Source of the DNA: Microbacterium sp. LWO12-1.2
GTDB lineage: Bacteria; Actinomycetota; Actinomycetes; Actinomycetales; Microbacteriaceae
DNA: 64,000 nt
Assembly: GCF_040675875.1 (NCBI RefSeq)
Contig: NZ_JBEGII010000001.1
Span: 1,426,001-1,490,000 of the forward strand
Direction: 5' to 3'
Under the pieces are notes generated by a model. That model worked only from the letters and a program-made list of their open reading frames with translations, did not search any database and had not been told where the DNA came from. Both the position numbers and the translations under genes were made by a program. Positions 4,010 to 13,319 of the stretch are shown here, piece by piece. Within the stretch, counting starts at the first letter, position 1; each line of letters starts with the position of its first letter.

Positions 4010-4456
4010 TGTTGGTTACCAACCTCGGGTTCAGGGGGTCCAGTTACTCATCGGACCCGGCCCCTGATCCACGCATCGTGCTGTTCTGCTCTTCGCGCAC
4101 CGTCACATCTCGCGACGGCGCACCGAGTAGCGCTCCCGGAATGTACGCGACCCCTCCGCCGCGCGCATCCCCGGTCGTTCGGAGTCGAGGCGACGACGGA
4201 TCTGCGTGTTCCGATCGCTCGTGAGCGCCGGAACAGACGCAGAGCACCGCAATTCGACGACGCTCCCCAGACATGCAGCTACATGGCTTCGACCCTCTGT
4301 GCAGAGTCTCCGCAGAAAAAGCGTACGTCAAGAAAGTGTCTGAGACCAGCCAGAATCCGGTCTTCAACCTTCCTTGAGGTGAGTCACCCCTGGTACTCCC
4401 CGACCGAGGAGGCGGCCACGGATGAAGACCATGAGAATCGCCTCCGACGCCGCGTC
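4010..4456. other. Gene-poor gap before the ABC/two-component module
   Basis: About 450 bp without a convincing gene. It begins with the inverted repeat GTTGGTTACCAAC. Open frames exist on both strands, for example a 107-codon minus-strand frame starting TTG at 4367, but they have no ribosome-binding site at proper distance and no family resemblance. Near 4386-4396 the stretch TCACCCCTGGT resembles the operator at 4461-4472 with one base missing. The base composition is less biased than in neighbouring genes, which may mark a boundary of acquired DNA, but I see no integrase, att site or IS remnant. Confidence 0.5.
4011..4023. repeat. 13-nt perfect inverted repeat, possible operator
   Basis: GTTGGT-T-ACCAAC, with arms of 6 nt and a 1-nt centre. 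It abuts the start of the small minus-strand gene. Its half-site GTTGGT also occurs in the operator repeats at 4471-4476 and 6635-6640, but there in a different arrangement (arms facing across a CCT spacer). Confidence 0.35.
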
Positions 4457-4504
4457 AACATCAACCCCTGGTTGGTGGCGCGCTGTCGGAGCCGTTTCTA
4501 CCGT
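4457..4504 (+). promoter_or_regulatory. Operator and -10 of the first ABC operon (copy 1 of a shared module)
   Basis: Bases 4457-4478 are identical to 6621-6642. Inside lies an imperfect inverted repeat, ATCAACC-CCT-GGTTGGT (4460-4476). The stretch TTTCTACCGTGG begins 38 nt after the repeat starts, and holds the -10 TACCGT at 4499-4504. No good -35 hexamer stands at 17-18 nt, so the operator is placed where an activator would act. The same layout recurs in front of the second ABC operon. Confidence 0.7.
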
Positions 4505-4511
4505 GGACAGC

Positions 4512-5243
4512 ATGGAGGGAATCAGCGAGAGAAGTGCACACGACCGACTGAGCGATCACGCGCGGATAGTGGGCACCGGCCTCTCGCACCGGTACGGTTC
4601 GGCCGTTGCATTGCAGGATGTGACGTTATCGATCCGCGACGGCGAGTCCGTGGCGATCATGGGACCGTCGGGGTCAGGCAAGAGCACGCTCCTTCACGTG
4701 CTCGCCGGGATCGTTCGCCCTGACTCCGGCAGGGTGATGCTGCGCACCGCACGGGGCGCAGTGGATGTGGCGTCGATGAACGACCGCGAGCGCTCGGCGC
4801 TGAGGTTGACGGAGTTCGGCTTCGTCTTCCAACAGGGGATGCTCATTCCGGAGCTGACCGCTGCGGAGAATGTCGCTCTGCCCTTGCTGTTGAACGGTGA
4901 GAGCCGAACAGAGGCCACTCGGACCGCGGAGAACCTGCTCATCGAGCTGGGCCTCGACGGGATGGGCGGCCGGCGGATCGGACAGCTCTCCGGGGGCCAG
5001 GCTCAGCGCGTGGCTGTCGCCCGAGCACGGGCGACCCAGGCTCGTGTGATCTTCGCGGATGAGCCGACCGGAGCCCTTGATTCGCGGACGGCGTCGGACG
5101 TTCTCGGTGTGCTTCTCGCCGCTACCACCGACGAGGGGCGCTCGTTGGTCGTGGTGACACACGATGAGGACGTGGCTGCGCGCTGCGATCGGGTGGTGCG
5201 GCTTCGCGACGGTCGGATCGACAGTGGTCGGTGGTCCCGGTGA
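4512..5243 (+). CDS. ABC transporter ATP-binding protein, LolD/MacB type
   Basis: A 243-aa ATPase that should drive the adjacent FtsX-like permease at the inner face of the membrane. Walker A GPSGSGKST is at 51-59, Q-loop FQQGM near 107, signature LSGGQ at 159-163 and Walker B VIFADE at 179-184. Such ATPases serve lipoprotein, lipid or antimicrobial-peptide handling systems. Start: ATG at 4512 is 7 nt after the -10 TACCGT, so the message is probably leaderless. An in-frame ATG at 4422 would translate the operator itself (giving the peptide STPGWW) and is rejected. The stop overlaps the permease start (GTGA). Confidence 0.85.
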   Translation: MEGISERSAHDRLSDHARIVGTGLSHRYGSAVALQDVTLSIRDGESVAIMGPSGSGKSTLLHVLAGIVRPDSGRVMLRTARGAVDVASMNDRERSALRLTEFGFVFQQGMLIPELTAAENVALPLLLNGESRTEATRTAENLLIELGLDGMGGRRIGQLSGGQAQRVAVARARATQARVIFADEPTGALDSRTASDVLGVLLAATTDEGRSLVVVTHDEDVAARCDRVVRLRDGRIDSGRWSR

Positions 5244-6580
5244 GATCTCCGGTGTTCCCCGTGCTGTGGCGTCCCTTCGTCGGCGACGCCTCCACATGGG
5301 TGTTGCCCGTGGTCGCTTTCACGATCATCGGGGCGGCGACATATCTGGTTGCGGCGTTGGCGAGGCTGTTCTGGCTCGCACCCGATGCCGGCTTCGGCCA
5401 GTACAAGATCCTGGCGGTGGCACTGCTGGCCGTGCTGGTGGTTCCGACCGCGTCCTTGGGAACGGCGGCGGCTCGATTGTCCGCACGCCGCCGGGAAGAC
5501 CGACTGGCGGTGCTCCGTCTGCTCGGAGCATCATCGGGTCAGGTGCGCGGGATCGCGGTGGCCGAAGCATCGCTGCTCGCGGCGGCAGGGGCGATCCTCG
5601 GTCTGTTCGGGTACGCCGCGCTGGCACCAGCACTCGTCTGGATTCCGGTGGCTGGGCACGCGCCTCTTCTCGATGCGGTGTGGCTCCCCGTCTGCGTGCT
5701 CGGACTGTTGGTCTGCGCCCTGACGGTCGTGTCTGCCCTCAGCGCTGCCGCGAGTCTGCGCCGGGTGATCATCTCGCCGCTGGGCGTCCGGATGCGGGTG
5801 AACGCACCGCGACTTCATCGGGCTCGGCTTCTCGCGGGCGCCACTGTGCTCGCCGGGGCGATCATCCTGCTGCAGTTCATGTCCGTGAGCTGGGGTGCGG
5901 TGGGGATCACCGTGGCGATCGTCGTCGTACTCGTGGCGGTGATGGCGGTGCTCAACCTCGTCGGGCCGTTCCTGATCGGAAGAGTCGCCCGCAGACGACT
6001 CGCTCGTGCCCGAACGGCGGAGGACGTGATCGGCGCCCGGGGTGCACTCGAGTCCCCTGCGGACGCCTGGCGACAGCTCTCCGGGGTCGGACTGGCGAGC
6101 TTCATCGCCGTTCCGGCCGGGTCGGTGCTCGGGTTCCTGGACATGGTGCAGAACGGGTCGGCGGCCCTGGCACCTGAACAGCTGGTCTTCTTCGGGGACA
6201 TCCGCACGGTCGTCGTCGCCGCGGTCGCCTCGTCTTTTCTGTTGGTGGCGACCTCCGTCGGCCTCACGCAAGCAGCATCCGTGCTCGAGCGCCGCGCTCT
6301 GTACATCGCTCTCGACCGGGTGGGCATGCCCACCCGGGTGATGCAACGCGCTCGCAGGGCAGCCGTCTCCGTTCCACTGCTCGTGGCCGCGGTCTTTCCC
6401 GCTGTGGCCGCCTCGTTGCTGGTCGCACCCATCGTGGGGGTGTCGGTCTTCACCGCACCCTTGTTCATCGTGACCGTCATCGTGTGCATCGTTCTCGGCG
6501 TCGTGCTGGTGCTGCTGGGAGTCACCGCGACGCGTCCCGTACTGCGACGTGTACTCAGTGAACCGGACCGAGCGCTCTAG
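5240..6580 (+). CDS. FtsX-like ABC transporter permease
   Basis: A 446-aa integral membrane protein with roughly ten hydrophobic segments in two FtsX-like halves. The cytoplasmic coupling stretch RREDRLAVLRLLGASSGQVR near residues 78-97 is the typical FtsX-domain signature, and a related stretch, ERRALYIALDRVGMPTRVMQ, occurs in the second half. No large periplasmic MacB-type domain is visible. It is translationally coupled to the ATPase gene (GTGA overlap at 5240-5243); a GTG at 5231 is an alternative. Substrate unknown; pairing with a two-component system suggests cell-envelope stress or antimicrobial peptide response (inference). Confidence 0.83.
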   Translation: MRSPVFPVLWRPFVGDASTWVLPVVAFTIIGAATYLVAALARLFWLAPDAGFGQYKILAVALLAVLVVPTASLGTAAARLSARRREDRLAVLRLLGASSGQVRGIAVAEASLLAAAGAILGLFGYAALAPALVWIPVAGHAPLLDAVWLPVCVLGLLVCALTVVSALSAAASLRRVIISPLGVRMRVNAPRLHRARLLAGATVLAGAIILLQFMSVSWGAVGITVAIVVVLVAVMAVLNLVGPFLIGRVARRRLARARTAEDVIGARGALESPADAWRQLSGVGLASFIAVPAGSVLGFLDMVQNGSAALAPEQLVFFGDIRTVVVAAVASSFLLVATSVGLTQAASVLERRALYIALDRVGMPTRVMQRARRAAVSVPLLVAAVFPAVAASLLVAPIVGVSVFTAPLFIVTVIVCIVLGVVLVLLGVTATRPVLRRVLSEPDRAL

Positions 6581-6620
6581 CGCTTGCCGTCGTGGAAGCG
6601 GCATCTGCTCGCGAACCCGA

Positions 6621-6668
6621 AACATCAACCCCTGGTTGGTGGGAGCGCGCTCCACGGATTTCTAACGT
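6621..6668 (+). promoter_or_regulatory. Operator and -10 of the second ABC operon (copy 2 of the shared module)
   Basis: Bases 6621-6642 repeat 4457-4478 without a mismatch. The inverted repeat ATCAACC-CCT-GGTTGGT lies at 6624-6640, and TTTCTAACGTGG starts 38 nt from the repeat start, exactly as in copy 1. The -10 is TAACGT (6663-6668). The bases between operator and -10 differ from copy 1, so the two ends are held while the middle drifts, as expected for a selected promoter. Confidence 0.72.
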
Positions 6669-6708
6669 GGGAGCAGGCCACCAGACAGGGCAACGCGAAG
6701 GAGACGAA

Positions 6709-7617
6709 GTGACGATCGAAGTTCAGAATCTGACCAAGCGGTATGGGGATCGCTACGCCGTGCGAGATGTGTCGTTCACGGTTCACCCCGGCAGAGTCAC
6801 CGGCTTTCTCGGACCGAACGGCGCGGGAAAGTCGACCACGATGCGCTCGATCGTCGGCCTCGACCGGCCGACCTCGGGTCAGGCGCTCATCGACGGGAAG
6901 ACGTACGCCTCATACCGGGCTCCCCTGCAGCGGGTGGGCGCACTGCTGGACGCGAAAGCAGCACACAAGTCCCGCACGGCGGCGAACTATCTGTACTCGA
7001 TCGCCGCCACCCACCACATCCCGAGGTCGAGGGTCGATGAAGTGCTCGACGCGACGGGACTGACAACGGTCGCGAGGAAGAAAGTGGGCGGGTTCTCGTT
7101 GGGCATGGGTCAGCGGCTGGGCATCGCCGCTGCACTTCTGGGCGATCCGTCGACGCTGATCCTCGACGAGCCGGTGAACGGACTCGACCCGGAAGGCGTC
7201 ACCTGGGTGCGCACCCTGCTGGACCGGCTCGCGACCGAGGGCCGCACCGTCTTCCTGTCCTCGCACCTGCTCGGCGAACTCGCGCTGATCGCGGACCATG
7301 TCGTCATCATCGGACGCGGCGAGATCATCGCGGACTCACCGATAGACGCCCTCACGGAAGGCGGTCACCGCAGAGTCCGCGTCCGTACCACGGACACGAC
7401 GGCGCTGAGCAATCGCATCGCGAACGCGGCAGTGACCATCACCTCTTCCGAGAAGGAGATCCTGGAGATCGACGGGCTCACCACGGAGGAGATCGCCCTG
7501 GCCGCCCGAGAGGTCGACATCCTCTTGACGGAGTTGACCCCTCTGCGCCAGACCCTCGAGGACGCCTACAACGCGCTGACTCGCGACGCCGTGGAGTACG
7601 CCTCCGCCGGGCGTTGA
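6709..7617 (+). CDS. ABC-2-type transporter ATP-binding protein (CcmA/BcrA-like)
   Basis: A 302-aa ATPase for the following ABC-2 permease. Walker A GPNGAGKS is at 35-42, a diverged signature FSLGMGQRLG follows, then Walker B LILDEP with NGLDPEG, and a C-terminal region of about 80 residues as in bacitracin or drug exporters. Start: GTG at 6709 with AAGGAG at 6698-6703; the ATG at 6592 lies upstream of the promoter and is rejected. The first and second ABC ATPases are only distantly related, so the shared upstream sequence is not a simple gene duplication. Confidence 0.87.
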   Translation: MTIEVQNLTKRYGDRYAVRDVSFTVHPGRVTGFLGPNGAGKSTTMRSIVGLDRPTSGQALIDGKTYASYRAPLQRVGALLDAKAAHKSRTAANYLYSIAATHHIPRSRVDEVLDATGLTTVARKKVGGFSLGMGQRLGIAAALLGDPSTLILDEPVNGLDPEGVTWVRTLLDRLATEGRTVFLSSHLLGELALIADHVVIIGRGEIIADSPIDALTEGGHRRVRVRTTDTTALSNRIANAAVTITSSEKEILEIDGLTTEEIALAAREVDILLTELTPLRQTLEDAYNALTRDAVEYASAGR

Positions 7618-7643
7618 CTCAGAAACTGCGAAAGGAACAGACC

Positions 7644-8450
7644 ATGATGACCACTCTCACCGCGCCAATGACAGCCTCCGGAAGAGATGCCGACCTCCTC
7701 GGGACGATCCGTTCCGAATGGATCAAGTTCCGAGGACTCACCTCGAACGTCGTACTTGCCGGATTCGCGCTGCTGCTGCTCATCGCGAACGGGGTCGCGA
7801 TGCCATGGGCGTATGTGTTCCGCGACCGCGGTTCACCTCAGGCCGACTACGACGCCTACGCGGAGATGATCGTCGACAAGACCGGCTACGTCGGTGTCAT
7901 CCTCGCGGTCCTCGCCGCACTTCTGGTGACCAACGAGTACAGGTCCGGCCAGATCAGAACGACGCTGCTGTCGACACCCACGCGCATTCCGGCCCTGGTA
8001 TCGAAGGCGACGATCATCGCCGCGGTGTCGTTCATCATCGGTGTGATCAGTTCGAGCATCGGTTTCGCGATCGCCCCCGCGATCCTCGCCGGAGGTGGAT
8101 ACAGCTACCAGCTGGAGGGGGCCGAAGCCCTCCGTCTGATCGGAGGTTCCGGGCTTTACCTTGCCACGCTGAGCATCATCGGTATCGCGGCCGGCTCACT
8201 CATCAGAAACGTTGTCGGGTCAGTCCTGACGACGGTCGTGTTCCTGATCATCGTCCCGGTGATCCCCCAGATGTTCTCGGAGTATGGCACCGAGATCACC
8301 CGCTTCTTCCCGATCCAGGCGGGATCGCTCCTGCTGGCGCCCCAGGGGACGGATCCGATGGGGCCGTGGGGCGGATATCTCGTACTCGCGGCGTGGGCGG
8401 TCCTCCTGTTCACCGCCGCCGCGATCGCGCTCAAGCGGCGCGACGCGTGA
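7644..8450 (+). CDS. ABC-2-type transporter permease
   Basis: A 268-aa membrane protein with about six hydrophobic segments and the ABC-2 pattern (a cytoplasmic start SEWIKFRGL, then LAALLVTNEYRSGQIRTTLL after the second segment, as in ABC-2 proteins that act with BcrA/NatA-like ATPases). AAAGGA precedes the ATG at 7644; the next codon is also ATG. It follows the ATPase gene by 26 nt and so lies in the same operon. It is likely to export or remove a hydrophobic compound or peptide from the membrane; the compound is not known. Confidence 0.85.
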   Translation: MMTTLTAPMTASGRDADLLGTIRSEWIKFRGLTSNVVLAGFALLLLIANGVAMPWAYVFRDRGSPQADYDAYAEMIVDKTGYVGVILAVLAALLVTNEYRSGQIRTTLLSTPTRIPALVSKATIIAAVSFIIGVISSSIGFAIAPAILAGGGYSYQLEGAEALRLIGGSGLYLATLSIIGIAAGSLIRNVVGSVLTTVVFLIIVPVIPQMFSEYGTEITRFFPIQAGSLLLAPQGTDPMGPWGGYLVLAAWAVLLFTAAAIALKRRDA

Positions 8451-8466
8451 CAGGTAGGGTGGCACG

Positions 8467-9660
8467 GTGATCGATGCCTCCGACCTCGGCAGGCCGCAGA
8501 ACGCCGTGATGCGCTGGGTCAGAGAACGCCCGGTCATCATCGACGTGCTGGTGGTCATCGCCAGCCTCTCGTCATCGCTGCTCTCGGTCTCGCTGGCCGC
8601 GCAGCGCACTCCCTGGCCCAGCATCCTGATCGCGTGCGCCGCCTCCGCACCGTTGCTCTGGCGCCGTCGAGCGCCCTTCGTCACGGTCTGCGCCACCGCG
8701 TTGATCGGTGCCGTCGGCGTGTGGATCTCACCCGGGGTCGGGGCACTGAGCTTCCCGCTCGCGTTCGCGCTCTACAGCCTCGCCGCCACTCGCTCCTTCC
8801 CACGCACCGTGCTCGGATATGCGATCGGCGTCTGTGCTCCCGCTCTGAGCGCACTGGGGCTGTGGCTGACAGACGGGCAGACCTTCTCGCCGTTGCTGCT
8901 CGACCCTGTGGCACTCGTCGGGCTGTCGCTCGGACTGGCCGTGAAGAACCGCCGGCAGCGCCAGGAAGCAGTCGCAGCGCTCCTCGAGCAGCAGCTCGAA
9001 AACGCGCGGGTCACCGAGCGCAGCCGGATCACCGCCGAGATGCACGACGTCGTCGCCCACTCGATCTCGATCATGATCGCCCTCGCAGACGGGGCGTCGA
9101 CGGGGTGGGAGAAGCATCCCGAACGGTCCGCAACCGCTCTGCGGAATCTGGGCGGGGTGGGAAGGACTGCGCTCATCGACATGCGCCGCATCCTCCACCT
9201 GCTCCGAGACAACGACGCAGACCTCGCGGAAGCGCTGCACCGTTCCGGCCACAATCTCCCCACACTGGACGAGCTTGTCGACGTCTTCCGCAGTGCCGGG
9301 CTTCCCGTGCGCCTCATCCGCGTCGGGAACGCGCTACCGGACGATCCCACTCTGGCAACCTCGATCTACCGCATCTCCCAAGAAGCGCTCACGAATGCGC
9401 TGCGATACGCCGCAGGAGCCACGCGAGTCGACGTACGACTCGAATCCGACGGGGCAGCGGTCTCGCTCACGGTCACCGACGACGGGCACCCGCCGACCTC
9501 AGGAGCGCCGAGCCAGGGCAGTGGCAGAGGACTGCAGGGCATCGCAGAGCGCGCCGCCGCGTACGAAGGCACCACCAGCAGCGGACAGCTCCCCACCGGC
9601 GGGTGGCGCACGACAGCAACCCTCTACCTCGACCACGGAAGCAGGGTCGATCCCTCATGA
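8467..9660 (+). CDS. Sensor histidine kinase, HisKA_3 (DesK/NarL class)
   Basis: A 397-aa membrane sensor kinase. Four to five hydrophobic segments cover residues 20-160 with very short loops, so it probably senses within the membrane. A coiled stretch (170-185) leads to the HisKA_3 box MHDVVAHS with phospho-acceptor His193, and the ATPase domain follows (N-box SQEALTNALRYA, glycine box GSGRGLQGI). The start GTG has no Shine-Dalgarno but TAGGGT at 8455-8460 ends 6 nt upstream, so it may be transcribed separately as a leaderless message. The stop overlaps the regulator start (ATGA). Confidence 0.9.
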   Translation: MIDASDLGRPQNAVMRWVRERPVIIDVLVVIASLSSSLLSVSLAAQRTPWPSILIACAASAPLLWRRRAPFVTVCATALIGAVGVWISPGVGALSFPLAFALYSLAATRSFPRTVLGYAIGVCAPALSALGLWLTDGQTFSPLLLDPVALVGLSLGLAVKNRRQRQEAVAALLEQQLENARVTERSRITAEMHDVVAHSISIMIALADGASTGWEKHPERSATALRNLGGVGRTALIDMRRILHLLRDNDADLAEALHRSGHNLPTLDELVDVFRSAGLPVRLIRVGNALPDDPTLATSIYRISQEALTNALRYAAGATRVDVRLESDGAAVSLTVTDDGHPPTSGAPSQGSGRGLQGIAERAAAYEGTTSSGQLPTGGWRTTATLYLDHGSRVDPS

Positions 9661-10322
9661 GTCCGACCCAGGTCCGCGTCCTCGTCGCCGACGACCAGCC
9701 CCTCGTGCGCATGGGCAACGCCCTCGTGCTCGACAGTGCCGATGACGTCGACGTCATCGGTGAAGCCGCCAGCGGCGAAGAGGCCGTCGCCCTGGCGGCG
9801 ATGCTGTTGCCGGACGTCGTGCTCATGGACGTGCGGATGCCGGGCATCGGAGGTATCGAGGCCACCCGACTGATCACCACCGCTCATCCTGGCATCAAGG
9901 TCATCGTCTTCACGACCTTCGATATCGACGAGTACGCCTTCGGTGGCCTGAACGCGGGTGCGAGCGCATTCCTGCTCAAGAGCACCCCTCCCGAGACGCT
10001 CACGGCAGCCGTCCGTACGGTCGCCGCCGGCGACGGCGTCGTCGAGCCGCGCATCACCAAGATACTCATCGACCACTACGCGCAACGCCGCCCCTCCTCA
10101 GGAGGAGTCAGACAGCCGCCGCCACCGCTGGACCGTCTCACGCCACGCGAATACGACATCTTCCTCGCGATGGCGACGGGCCTGTCCAACCCCGAGATCA
10201 GCGCGCAGCTGCATCTCACGCCTGCGACGGTGAAGACACATATCAACCGCGTCTTCGCGAAGCTGGACGTCCGAGACCGCGTCCACGCGGTCATCCTCGC
10301 CCACACGCTCAAGGTTCTCTGA
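9657..10322 (+). CDS. NarL/LuxR-family response regulator
   Basis: A 221-aa response regulator paired with the kinase just upstream. Receiver domain: acidic pair at 12-13 (VADDQP), phospho-acceptor Asp58 in LMDVRMPG, Thr in FTTFD and Lys in FLLKSTPP. The C-terminal LuxR-type helix-turn-helix runs from LTPREYDIFLAMATG to VKTHINRVFAKLDVRDR. I infer that it binds the repeated operator in front of both ABC operons, because it is the only regulator gene of the module. ATGA overlap with the kinase implies coupled translation. Confidence 0.9.
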   Translation: MSPTQVRVLVADDQPLVRMGNALVLDSADDVDVIGEAASGEEAVALAAMLLPDVVLMDVRMPGIGGIEATRLITTAHPGIKVIVFTTFDIDEYAFGGLNAGASAFLLKSTPPETLTAAVRTVAAGDGVVEPRITKILIDHYAQRRPSSGGVRQPPPPLDRLTPREYDIFLAMATGLSNPEISAQLHLTPATVKTHINRVFAKLDVRDRVHAVILAHTLKVL

Positions 10323-10365
10323 CGTCGCTACGCAGGCGTCGCACACCGCAGGATCGAAGATGAAG

Positions 10366-10438
10366 TGGGCCCTGCCGGGATCGAACCGACGACATCCACG
10401 GTGTAAACGTGGCGCTCTACCAGCTGAGCTAAAGGCCC
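10366..10438 (-). tRNA. tRNA-Val (anticodon TAC)
   Basis: Read on the minus strand, the 73 nt fold as a full cloverleaf: acceptor GGGCCTT with AGGGCCC, D-arm GCTCAGCTGGTAGAGC, anticodon stem CCACG/CGTGG around the loop TTTACAC, and T-loop GGTTCGATCC. The anticodon TAC reads valine GUA codons. The discriminator is A and the CCA tail is not encoded. Confidence 0.96.
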
Positions 10439-10449
10439 TGGTGCGTCTT

Positions 10450-10455
10450 AGTCTA
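10450..10455 (-). promoter_or_regulatory. -10 box of tRNA-Val
   Basis: TAGACT on the minus strand. Transcription would start near 10443, five bases before the mature tRNA end. The -35 is not clear. Confidence 0.45.
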
Positions 10456-10592
10456 TCGGGCAGCCGGTGCGCGACGGTGTCGTGGAAGAGGGCTAGGCTG
10501 AGGGCGGCACGCGTTGTGCACAGCCGACAAGGCTGCCCGCGTCGCTTCCCGTTTCATTGGCATGACCTGCCAGCTTGACGAAAGGCTCCCCC

Positions 10593-13319
10593 GTGACTGT
10601 GCACGACCAGGATCCGTATTCCCAGGGCCCCCAAGACAGCGATCCGGAAGAGACCGGCGAGTGGCAGCAGTCGCTCGATGAGCTGGTGGATGCCAAGGGC
10701 CACGGCCGTGGCCGCGAGATCATGCTCAGCCTGCTCAAGCGCTCCAAGGAGCTGCACCTGGGCGTGCCGATGGTCCCGACAACGGACTACATCAACACCA
10801 TCGCGAGCGAGAACGAGCCGGAGTTCCCCGGTGACGAGGAGATCGAGCGCCGCTACCGCGCCTGGATCCGCTGGAATGCCGCGATCACGGTCCACCGTGC
10901 GCAGCGCCCCGGCATCGGTGTCGGCGGTCACATCTCCACCTACGCGTCCTCAGCCGCGCTCTACGAGGTCGGCTTCAACCACTTCTTCAAGGGCGCGGAC
11001 AACCCCGGTGGCGGCGACCAGATCTTCATCCAGGGTCACGCCTCCCCCGGCACCTACGCGCGCTCCTTCCTCGAAGGACGCCTGAGCGAGGACCAGCTCG
11101 ACGGATTCCGCCAGGAGAAGTCGCACGCCCCATACGGCATCCCGTCGTACCCGCACCCGCGCCTCATGCCGGACTACTGGCAGTTCCCGACCGTGTCGAT
11201 GGGCCTCGGCCCGATCAACGCCATCTACCAGGCGATGTCGAACAAGTACGTCGAGAACCGCGGCATCAAGGACACCTCCGCATCGCACGTCTGGGCCTTC
11301 CTCGGCGATGGCGAGATGGACGAGGTCGAGAGCCGCGGGCAGCTCCAGGTCGCTGCCAACGAGGGTCTCGACAACCTCACCTTCGTGGTCAACTGCAACC
11401 TGCAGCGCCTCGACGGTCCCGTGCGCGGAAACGGCAAGATCGTCCAGGAGCTGGAGTCGTTCTTCCGCGGTGCCGGCTGGAACGTCATCAAGGTGATCTG
11501 GGGCCGCGAGTGGGACGACCTGCTCGCCCGCGACACCGAGGGAGCACTGCTCAACCTCATGAACGTCACCCCCGACGGTGACTACCAGACGTACAAGGCC
11601 GAGTCCGGTGCGTACGTGCGCGAGCACTTCTTCGGCCGCGACGAGCGTGCAGCAGCACTGGTCAAGGACTACTCAGACGACGAGATCTGGAACCTCAAGC
11701 GCGGCGGCCACGACTACCGCAAGGTCTACGCCGCCTTCAAGGCTGCGACCGAGCACAAGGGCAAGCCCACCGTCATCCTCGCGAAGACCGTCAAGGGCTA
11801 CGGCCTCGGTCCGCACTTCGAGGGCCGCAACGCGACCCACCAGATGAAGAAGATGACGCTGGACAACCTCAAGACGTTCCGCGACGCCATGCACATCCCG
11901 ATCACGGATGCGCAGCTCGAGGAGAACCCGTACCTGCCCCCGTACTACAACCCGGGCCCCCAGGACGAGACGATCCAGTACATGCTCGAGCGTCGTCAGG
12001 CGCTGGGCGGCTTCCTCCCGGAGCGCCGCTCGACCCACGTCGGGCTCTCGCTGCCGGACGACACGGCCTACGCGCTGCCCAAGAAGGGCTCAGGCACGCA
12101 GGAGATCGCCACGACCATGGCGTTCGTCCGTCTGCTGAAGGATCTGCTGCGCTCGAAGGACTTCGGCCACCGCATCGTGCCGATCATCCCCGACGAGGCT
12201 CGCACGTTCGGCATGGACGCGTACTTCCCGTCCGCGAAGATCTACAACCCGAACGGCCAGCACTACACCTCGGTCGACCGTGAGCTCCTCCTCGCATACA
12301 AGGAGAGCCCGCAAGGCCAGATCGTGCACGTCGGGATCAACGAGGCCGGCGCTCTCGCTGCCTTCACCGCCGCCGGCACCTCCTACGCCACGCACGGCGA
12401 GCCGCTGATCCCGATCTACCTCTTCTACTCGATGTTCGGCTTCCAGCGCACCGGCGACGCCCAGTGGGCCGCCGGCGACCAGATGGCCCGCGGGTTCATC
12501 ATGGGCGCCACCGCCGGCCGCACCACTCTCACGGGTGAGGGCCTGCAGCACGCCGACGGTCACTCGCACCTGCTCGCCGCCACCAACCCGGCGACGATCT
12601 CGTACGACCCGGCCTACGGCTACGAGATCGCGCACATCGTGCGTTCGGGTCTCGAGCGCATGTACGGCGGACAGCACGAGGACCCGAACGTGATGTACTA
12701 CATCACGCTCTACAACGAGCCTCTCGTGATGCCCGCCGAACCGGCGGATGTCGATGTCGACGGCATCGTCCGCGGCATCCACCGCATCTCCGTCGGCGAG
12801 GGCGAGGGCCCCCGCGCCCAGCTGTTCGCTTCCGGCGTCGGTGTGCCGTGGACTCTCGAGGCCCAGCAGCTGCTGAAGGACGACTGGGGCGTCGTCGCCG
12901 ACGTGTGGTCGGTCACCTCGTGGACCGAGCTGCGCCGCGATGGCCTGGCCGCCGACGAACACAACTTCCTGCACCCCGAGGCCGAGCCGCGCACGGCGTA
13001 CCTGACGCAGAAGCTCCAGGGCGCCGAAGGTCCGGTCGTCGCCGTGAGCGACTACATGCACGCGGTGCAGGACCAGATCCGTCCGTGGGTGCCGCAGCGC
13101 TTCGCGACGCTGGGAGCGGATGGCTTCGGCTTCTCCGACACCCGTGCGGCCGCACGTCGCTTCTTCAAGATCGACGGCCCCTCGGTCGTCGTGCGCACCC
13201 TGCAGTCGCTCGCCGAAGATGGCGTCGTGGACCGTTCGCTCGCCGCACAGGCGATCGAGAAGTACCGTCTGCTCGACGTGAACGCCGGCACCAGCGGCAA
13301 CGCAGGTGGCGAAAGCTGA
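10593..13319 (+). CDS. aceE: Pyruvate dehydrogenase E1 component, homodimeric type
   Basis: A 908-aa thiamine-diphosphate enzyme that decarboxylates pyruvate and acetylates the E2 lipoyl domain, feeding acetyl-CoA synthesis. The length and the opening ([13 protein letters not shown]) match actinobacterial AceE. The ThDP/Mg motif is [10 protein letters not shown] with NLTFVVNCN downstream; GQGH-type loops and the C-terminal transketolase-like domain are intact. Start: GTG at 10593 with AAAGG 8 nt upstream. No aceF or lpd lies nearby, which is usual for actinobacteria. TAGGCT at 10494-10499 is a possible -10. Confidence 0.96.

Follow-up and report, generated by a model that had tools for sequence, protein, structure and literature searches.

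The nearest studied system that we found to the locus described here is LnrJK-LnrLMN (formerly YfiJKLMN), the linearmycin/amphotericin response system of Bacillus subtilis. It comprises a two-component system beside an ATP-binding cassette (ABC) exporter with nucleotide-binding and membrane-spanning subunits; exposure to a membrane-active compound strongly raises expression of its operon, and this depends on LnrJK (PMC7472640). Our locus lies in a stretch of 64,000 nucleotides (nt) from Microbacterium sp. LWO12-1.2 (contig NZ_JBEGII010000001.1, positions 1,426,001 to 1,490,000; the whole stretch is called the window below), where an inverted repeat, or dyad, with the core CAACC-N3-GGTTG stands ahead of two different ABC operons. 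As in Lnr, a two-component system adjoins an ABC ATPase and an ABC-2 permease, with a promoter element ahead of the ATPase, and several relatives have an ATPase, two permeases, a kinase and a regulator (two permease similarity matches in L064-L068, L079-L081, L083 and L197). Unlike Lnr, the window has one ABC-2 permease rather than two, and the likeness is one of gene layout. It also differs in that one operator marks two operons here and further ones elsewhere, including FtsX-type ABC and SdpI genes, and in that the kinase-regulator pair lies behind the operator.

Bce modules combine an FtsX-domain permease of larger size with an OmpR-type regulator and an intramembrane-sensing kinase. The locus resembles BceRS-BceAB in that a two-component system accompanies an ABC transporter with an FtsX-domain permease (operon 1), but this permease, of 449 residues, shows a single FtsX match, and the regulator is of the GerE rather than the OmpR type. 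Like NarL, VraR and LiaR, the regulator consists of a receiver and a GerE helix-turn-helix (HTH) domain, and its best relatives of solved structure are VraR (E 4e-40) and NarL (8e-35). NarL prefers inverted heptamers 2 bp apart (PMC4549865), whereas the arms of our dyad are 3 nt apart and an asparagine takes the place of NarL Lys192. In the open-access literature, covered as titles and abstract openings and with subscription papers outside the scope, we found no description of this operator or regulon in Microbacteriaceae. The new element is an operator common to several operon classes; the kind of system itself is already known.

We conclude that CAACC-N3-GGTTG is very likely the operator of the linked NarL/LuxR-type regulator, through which both ABC operons would be activated. 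An earlier note on this DNA had claimed a perfect 22-nt repeat at 4457-4478 and 6621-6642, the dyad ATCAACC-CCT-GGTTGGT in both copies, and, beginning 38 nt after each repeat start, a stretch that holds a -10 element. The two stretches are indeed identical, and the dyads and -10 elements were read at these positions:

4460-4476, + strand: operator 1, dyad ATCAACC-CCT-GGTTGGT, with a perfect core at 4462-4474; conserved in relatives.
4499-4504, + strand: -10 of promoter 1, TACCGT, with no recognisable -35.
6624-6640, + strand: operator 2, an identical dyad, with a perfect core at 6626-6638.
6663-6668, + strand: -10 of promoter 2, TAACGT.

The sequences TTTCTACCGTGG and TTTCTAACGTGG begin 38 nt from the respective repeat starts, and the spacing from the first base of CAACC to the -10 is 37 nt at both promoters. 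The outer arms of the dyad pair with one mismatch (ATCAACC versus ACCAACC). At up to three mismatches the 17-nt dyad has two matches in the window against an expectation of 0.09, a number equalled by 1 of 100 shuffles; these shuffles and the half-site comparison given below rule out a chance repeat. Across the 4.1-Mb genome ATCAACCNNNGGTTGNT is matched exactly by the two window copies and nowhere else. A further occurrence of the shorter core, at G000:C1:3411823 (L003), has no -10 at the expected spacing; a core-only genome-wide search was not made. Among 24 loci fetched from the genome search, a -10 at the expected spacing was present only at the two window copies, and a wider regulon in this genome was rejected on that count, further two-mismatch matches lying outside the check. 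A degenerate dyad, CTGAACCCGAGGTTGGT, with two mismatches and no properly spaced -10, was also seen upstream of operon 1 at 4018-4034 on the minus strand.

The strict module was defined as CAACC-N3-GGTTG followed by a TAnnnT -10 that lies 37 or 38 nt from the start of the core, and the relaxed module as C[AC]ACC-N3-GG[GT]TG, widened only after the drifted sites of one subclade had been seen. The study set consists of 34 regulator loci taken from among the matches listed, 23 of the same genus and 11 belonging to four further genera of this family (labels g12, g15, g51 and g74); the clade may include more. Genus loci were gathered by regulator or ABC-2 permease searches (G093 also via a dyad search) and grouped by eye at a regulator identity of at least 56%, borderline cases such as L084 and L107 being placed partly by site; the resulting group forms one clade in the later tree. 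The 11 loci from other genera came from a hidden Markov model (HMM) built from the genus loci and run against 398 family genomes, with the cut placed, blind to the operator, where scores drop from 333 to 304 bits.

One finding that, by the earlier note, would overturn its regulon was loss of the dyad from relatives with both operons retained; such relatives carry the dyad before each operon, and the proposal survived. L062 (G083), L198 (G734) and L078 (G246) have a perfect dyad ahead of each operon with the -10s present, L061 and L077 carry it at both operons with one mismatch in the operon-1 copy, and in L079 one dyad precedes both ABC classes. Most other loci have a single ABC class and retain the dyad before it. 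Overall, 22 of the 34 loci hold the strict module and 31 hold the relaxed one. Outside the genus, in a test of prediction, 9 of the 11 loci carried the strict module, which had been defined without them; of the regulator loci ranking next in the HMM search, 9 were fetched and 0 carried it. A search of 247 genus genomes for the FtsX permease at an identity of at least 60% gave 7, all seven of them with this regulator.

A de novo search of 12 ATPase-2 upstream regions from the clade, tolerating one mismatch in the arms, returned CAACC with arms 3 nt apart in 12/12, while 20 mononucleotide shuffles reached at most 6/12. All 1024 half-sites were compared across the 34 loci (466,479 bases), with the gap kept at 3 nt and a TAnnnT -10 required 37/38 nt away; CAACC gave 27 sites in 22 loci and the next-best half-site gave 1. 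The exact 15-mer was found at nine places in 366 genomes, eight of them in these regulator loci and one within an unrelated coding sequence (in G305, inside a sugar-permease-like coding sequence). The same 15-mer search returned TCAACCCCTGGATGG in many and TCCACCCCTGGTTGG in several of the 366 genus genomes, perhaps from conserved coding sequence.

The module follows the regulator. In a maximum-likelihood tree of 91 regulator rows, all 31 operator rows fell within one clade of 33 rows (support 100/99; the bootstrap was flagged as not fully settled, and L060 was excluded as too short), and operator rows outside that clade numbered 0/58. Every clade row carries Asn197 in the recognition helix (33/33; 22/22 from the genus and 11/11 from the others), whereas the examined family paralogues have Gly or Ser in 26/26 and Gly or Ala in 9/9 (35/35 non-Asn). 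Asn197 aligns to NarL Lys192, a base-contacting residue, with the chain numbering off by one. In the subclade of L084, L092, L107, L206 and L207 the residue after Asn197 is Ser or Ala, and the operator has drifted to CCACC/CGACC or beyond. One regulator in the searches, 54% identical and found at L122 (WNZI01000003.1), is titled Vibrio cholerae; the other matches of that search have titles that look actinobacterial, and the record is probably mislabelled or contaminated.

A second candidate for the binding protein is a different, perhaps unlinked, transcription factor such as a repressor, with the two-component system present in operon 2 by chance. The dyad spans the -35 region and could seat a repressor, and the regulator is assigned to it from sequence. 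However, the module was unseen outside the regulator clade: neither its strict nor its relaxed form occurred in the 36 loci around paralogous regulators, and none of the 80 distant loci named for the scan, of which 16 are under 12 kb, carried a slightly wider form. It was also absent at three ABC homologues (L069-L071) with no kinase-regulator pair in the fetched neighbourhood. In loci with rearranged genes the operator still stands at ABC, SdpI or kinase-regulator promoters, and a promoter without a -35 speaks against simple repression. We consider another factor improbable.

Several observations nonetheless weigh against the linked regulator as the binder. The strict module is missing from 12 of the 34 loci (L060, L063, L066, L068, L076, L081, L084, L087, L092, L107, L206 and L207) and the relaxed module from three: L060 has one right-arm mismatch, L063 has degenerate dyads only with no -10 at the correct distance, and L207 has a site with two mismatches ahead of the kinase. 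Asn197 is probably a single inherited change with no repeated co-variation, and it is not sufficient, since 3 of the 80 distant regulators carry Asn at 197 and have no such operator. Furthermore, the kinase, regulator and ABC genes are co-inherited, so association alone cannot pinpoint the regulator. The dyad without a -10 is not specific either: with at most one mismatch allowed, 96 of 366 genomes contain the 15-mer, and six of 119 contain ATCAACCNNNGGTTGNT exactly, of which G000 and G093 are such loci and four (L072-L075) lie outside them without the module. The dyad alone was rejected as a marker. Taken together, the examined loci show a conserved module with near-fixed spacing that is tied to one regulator clade, which supports the single regulon of two ABC exporters that had been proposed under the LuxR-type regulator; binding and activation are predictions from the sequence pattern.

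For the anatomy of the promoters, 45 clade sites with up to two mismatches were tabulated; three overlapping second registers, readings of the same dyads on the opposite strand, the dyads of L063 and the site of L207 were not counted. The 45 sites precede ATPase 2 (22 sites), ATPase 1 (11), SdpI (7), the kinase-regulator pair (4) and another gene (1). The distance from the first base of the core to the -10 is 38 nt at 29 sites and 37 nt at 16. The claimed lack of a -35 also held, in that no consensus sigma-70 pair is present in 4300-10600. Over the clade, no site matched TTGACA at 16-18 nt in more than 4/6 positions, a level reached at 4 of 44 sites; because matches of at least 4/6 are also reached at 272 of 4400 random positions in these loci, there is no sign of a -35.

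The same 45 sites bear on whether the two copies reflect a recent duplication of a promoter segment, with the dyad itself unselected. The copies are identical over 22 nt, as such an event would leave them, but the DNA between dyad and -10 differs between them, just as the note had described. Half-site positions hold 1.0-2.0 bits, partly by construction because the half-sites chose the sites, whereas the columns between dyad and -10 hold mostly 0-1.0 bit. The arms also stay while the central triplet varies across loci (CCT, CGT, CGG, TAC, CTG), though its first base is almost always C (1.7 bits). A duplication is thus very improbable.

Of the 11 ATPase-1 promoters, 8 have an in-frame ATG only 6 or 7 nt past the -10. 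Core and ATG are 50 nt apart in seven of these eight, independently of the -10 spacing, and 49 nt apart in L198. This fixed distance, with the ATG just past the -10, suggests that the operon-1 mRNA is leaderless and starts at the ATG, which would centre the dyad near -44. Being an inverted repeat, the dyad could in principle work as RNA, in an attenuator or a 5' leader element. This is rejected, with hardly any probability left to it, because the dyad lies upstream of the -10 and outside the predicted transcript; at the eight operon-1 promoters there is moreover no room for a leader. The genes behind the two operators are the following:

4512-5243, + strand: ABC ATPase 1, LolD/MacB-like by profile but below cut-offs; its ATG lies 7 nt past the -10.
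5231-6580, + strand: FtsX-domain permease of operon 1, 449 residues; its start is uncertain and it overlaps the end of ATPase 1.
6709-7617, + strand: ABC ATPase 2; best profile a lantibiotic-protection/DrrA-like subfamily, below curated cut-offs.
7644-8450, + strand: ABC-2 type permease; ATG 7644 is the likely start, and the longest open reading frame runs from TTG 7614.
8467-9660, + strand: sensor histidine kinase with HisKA_3, HATPase_c and DUF7134.
9657-10322, + strand: response regulator, receiver plus GerE/LuxR HTH, with Asn197 in the recognition helix.

The best match of ATPase 2 is TIGR03740 (lantibiotic protection ABC; 203.5 bits, under the curated cut-off of 309.75), and a ribosome-site-like AAGGAG stands ahead of its gene at 6698-6703. 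The two ATPases share 25% identity over 196 residues and, as had been stated, are not close paralogues. The regulator passed the Pfam cut-offs for both PF00072 (85.2 bits, cut-off 30.2) and PF00196 (61.5 bits, cut-off 23.5). The kinase and regulator genes most likely belong to operon 2, because the kinase follows the ABC-2 permease after 16 nt and overlaps the regulator by 4 nt; the regulator sits behind operator 2 and is therefore probably autoregulated.

In the mechanism that we propose, the kinase would phosphorylate the regulator, a dimer of which would in that form bind the dyad. Centred 31 nt ahead of the first -10 base and some 43-44 nt ahead of the likely start, the dyad occupies a class II-like position from which the bound regulator is predicted to activate, rather than repress, a promoter having a -10 and no -35. 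Operator copy 1 would drive operon 1, the ABC ATPase and FtsX permease, from a probably leaderless message. Copy 2 would drive operon 2, presumably as one transcript of ABC ATPase, ABC-2 permease, kinase and regulator, giving positive autoregulation. The products are likely exporters that clear membrane- or envelope-active antimicrobials.

Further targets are found in relatives. In one branch of the clade (L080-L083, L085, L087 and L197) the operator lies just 3' of the regulator gene, ahead of an SdpI-family gene:

L080:10573, SdpI-family gene under the operator.
L081:10820, SdpI-family gene under the operator.
L082:10543, SdpI-family gene under the operator.
L083:2900, SdpI-family gene under the operator.
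L085:10599, SdpI-family gene under the operator.
L087:10446, SdpI-family gene under the operator.
L197:2831, SdpI-family gene under the operator.

The L080 and L081 proteins pass Pfam PF13630, that of L085 falls below it (22.0 versus 28.2), and those of L082, L083, L087 and L197 were assigned by similarity to the L080 protein. Because the operator stands at a constant distance from the transcription start and is retained in relatives with this kinase-regulator pair, the ABC operons and, in some relatives, the SdpI-type immunity gene are very probably switched on together. The earlier note had overlooked these SdpI-linked operators, as well as the probably leaderless promoter 1 and the probable inclusion of kinase and regulator in an autoregulated operon 2. 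At L107:8630 (G193) an operator precedes an unassigned gene region with a weakly NIPA-like membrane protein (below cut-off) and no ABC gene. In L076 (G137), at 9260-10426, comparison with relatives shows an in-frame fusion that joins the initial ~277 residues of the FtsX permease to the kinase's ATPase part. This locus lacks operator 2, ATPase 2 and the ABC-2 permease, the fusion frame is open and the regulator comes next.

The same genome holds a paralogous module of ATPase, permease, kinase and regulator at G000:C1:2091636-2095255 (L111:7037-10656). Its regulator is 52% identical to that of the window and has Gly at 197, and GGTACC lies 54 nt ahead of the ATPase match, which suggests a separate operator; by eye, its promoter looks leaderless. 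In the sister clade, a spaced-dyad search gave a weak best of 10/17 against a shuffle maximum of 8, the L115 upstream region being empty. By position, 15 of 16 upstream regions there have a GGTAC whose distance to the ATPase match is 53-54 or 71-81 nt; because these loci are related, the site is a lead only.

A broader picture is conceivable, though we hold it to be rather unlikely. Two related NarL-type modules in one genome would be kept apart by their operators (Asn197 with CAACC-N3-GGTTG here, and in the paralogue's clade Gly197 with a site containing GGTAC some 54 or 78 nt ahead of where the ATPase match begins), with a single contact residue as the main specificity switch, and one fixed promoter module would assemble a defence regulon of three unrelated immunity classes, an ABC-2 exporter, an FtsX-type ABC and the SdpI family.

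The system is thus of an ordinary kind with an unusually clear regulatory signature. It offers an exact operator and regulon for actinobacterial detoxification-type modules, from which further targets are predictable by sequence, and its two related regulators in one cell form a pair for studying specificity change in NarL-type recognition helices. SdpI-family genes are known mainly from Bacillus cannibalism immunity, and the finding ties them to a two-component ABC-exporter regulon in Actinobacteria.
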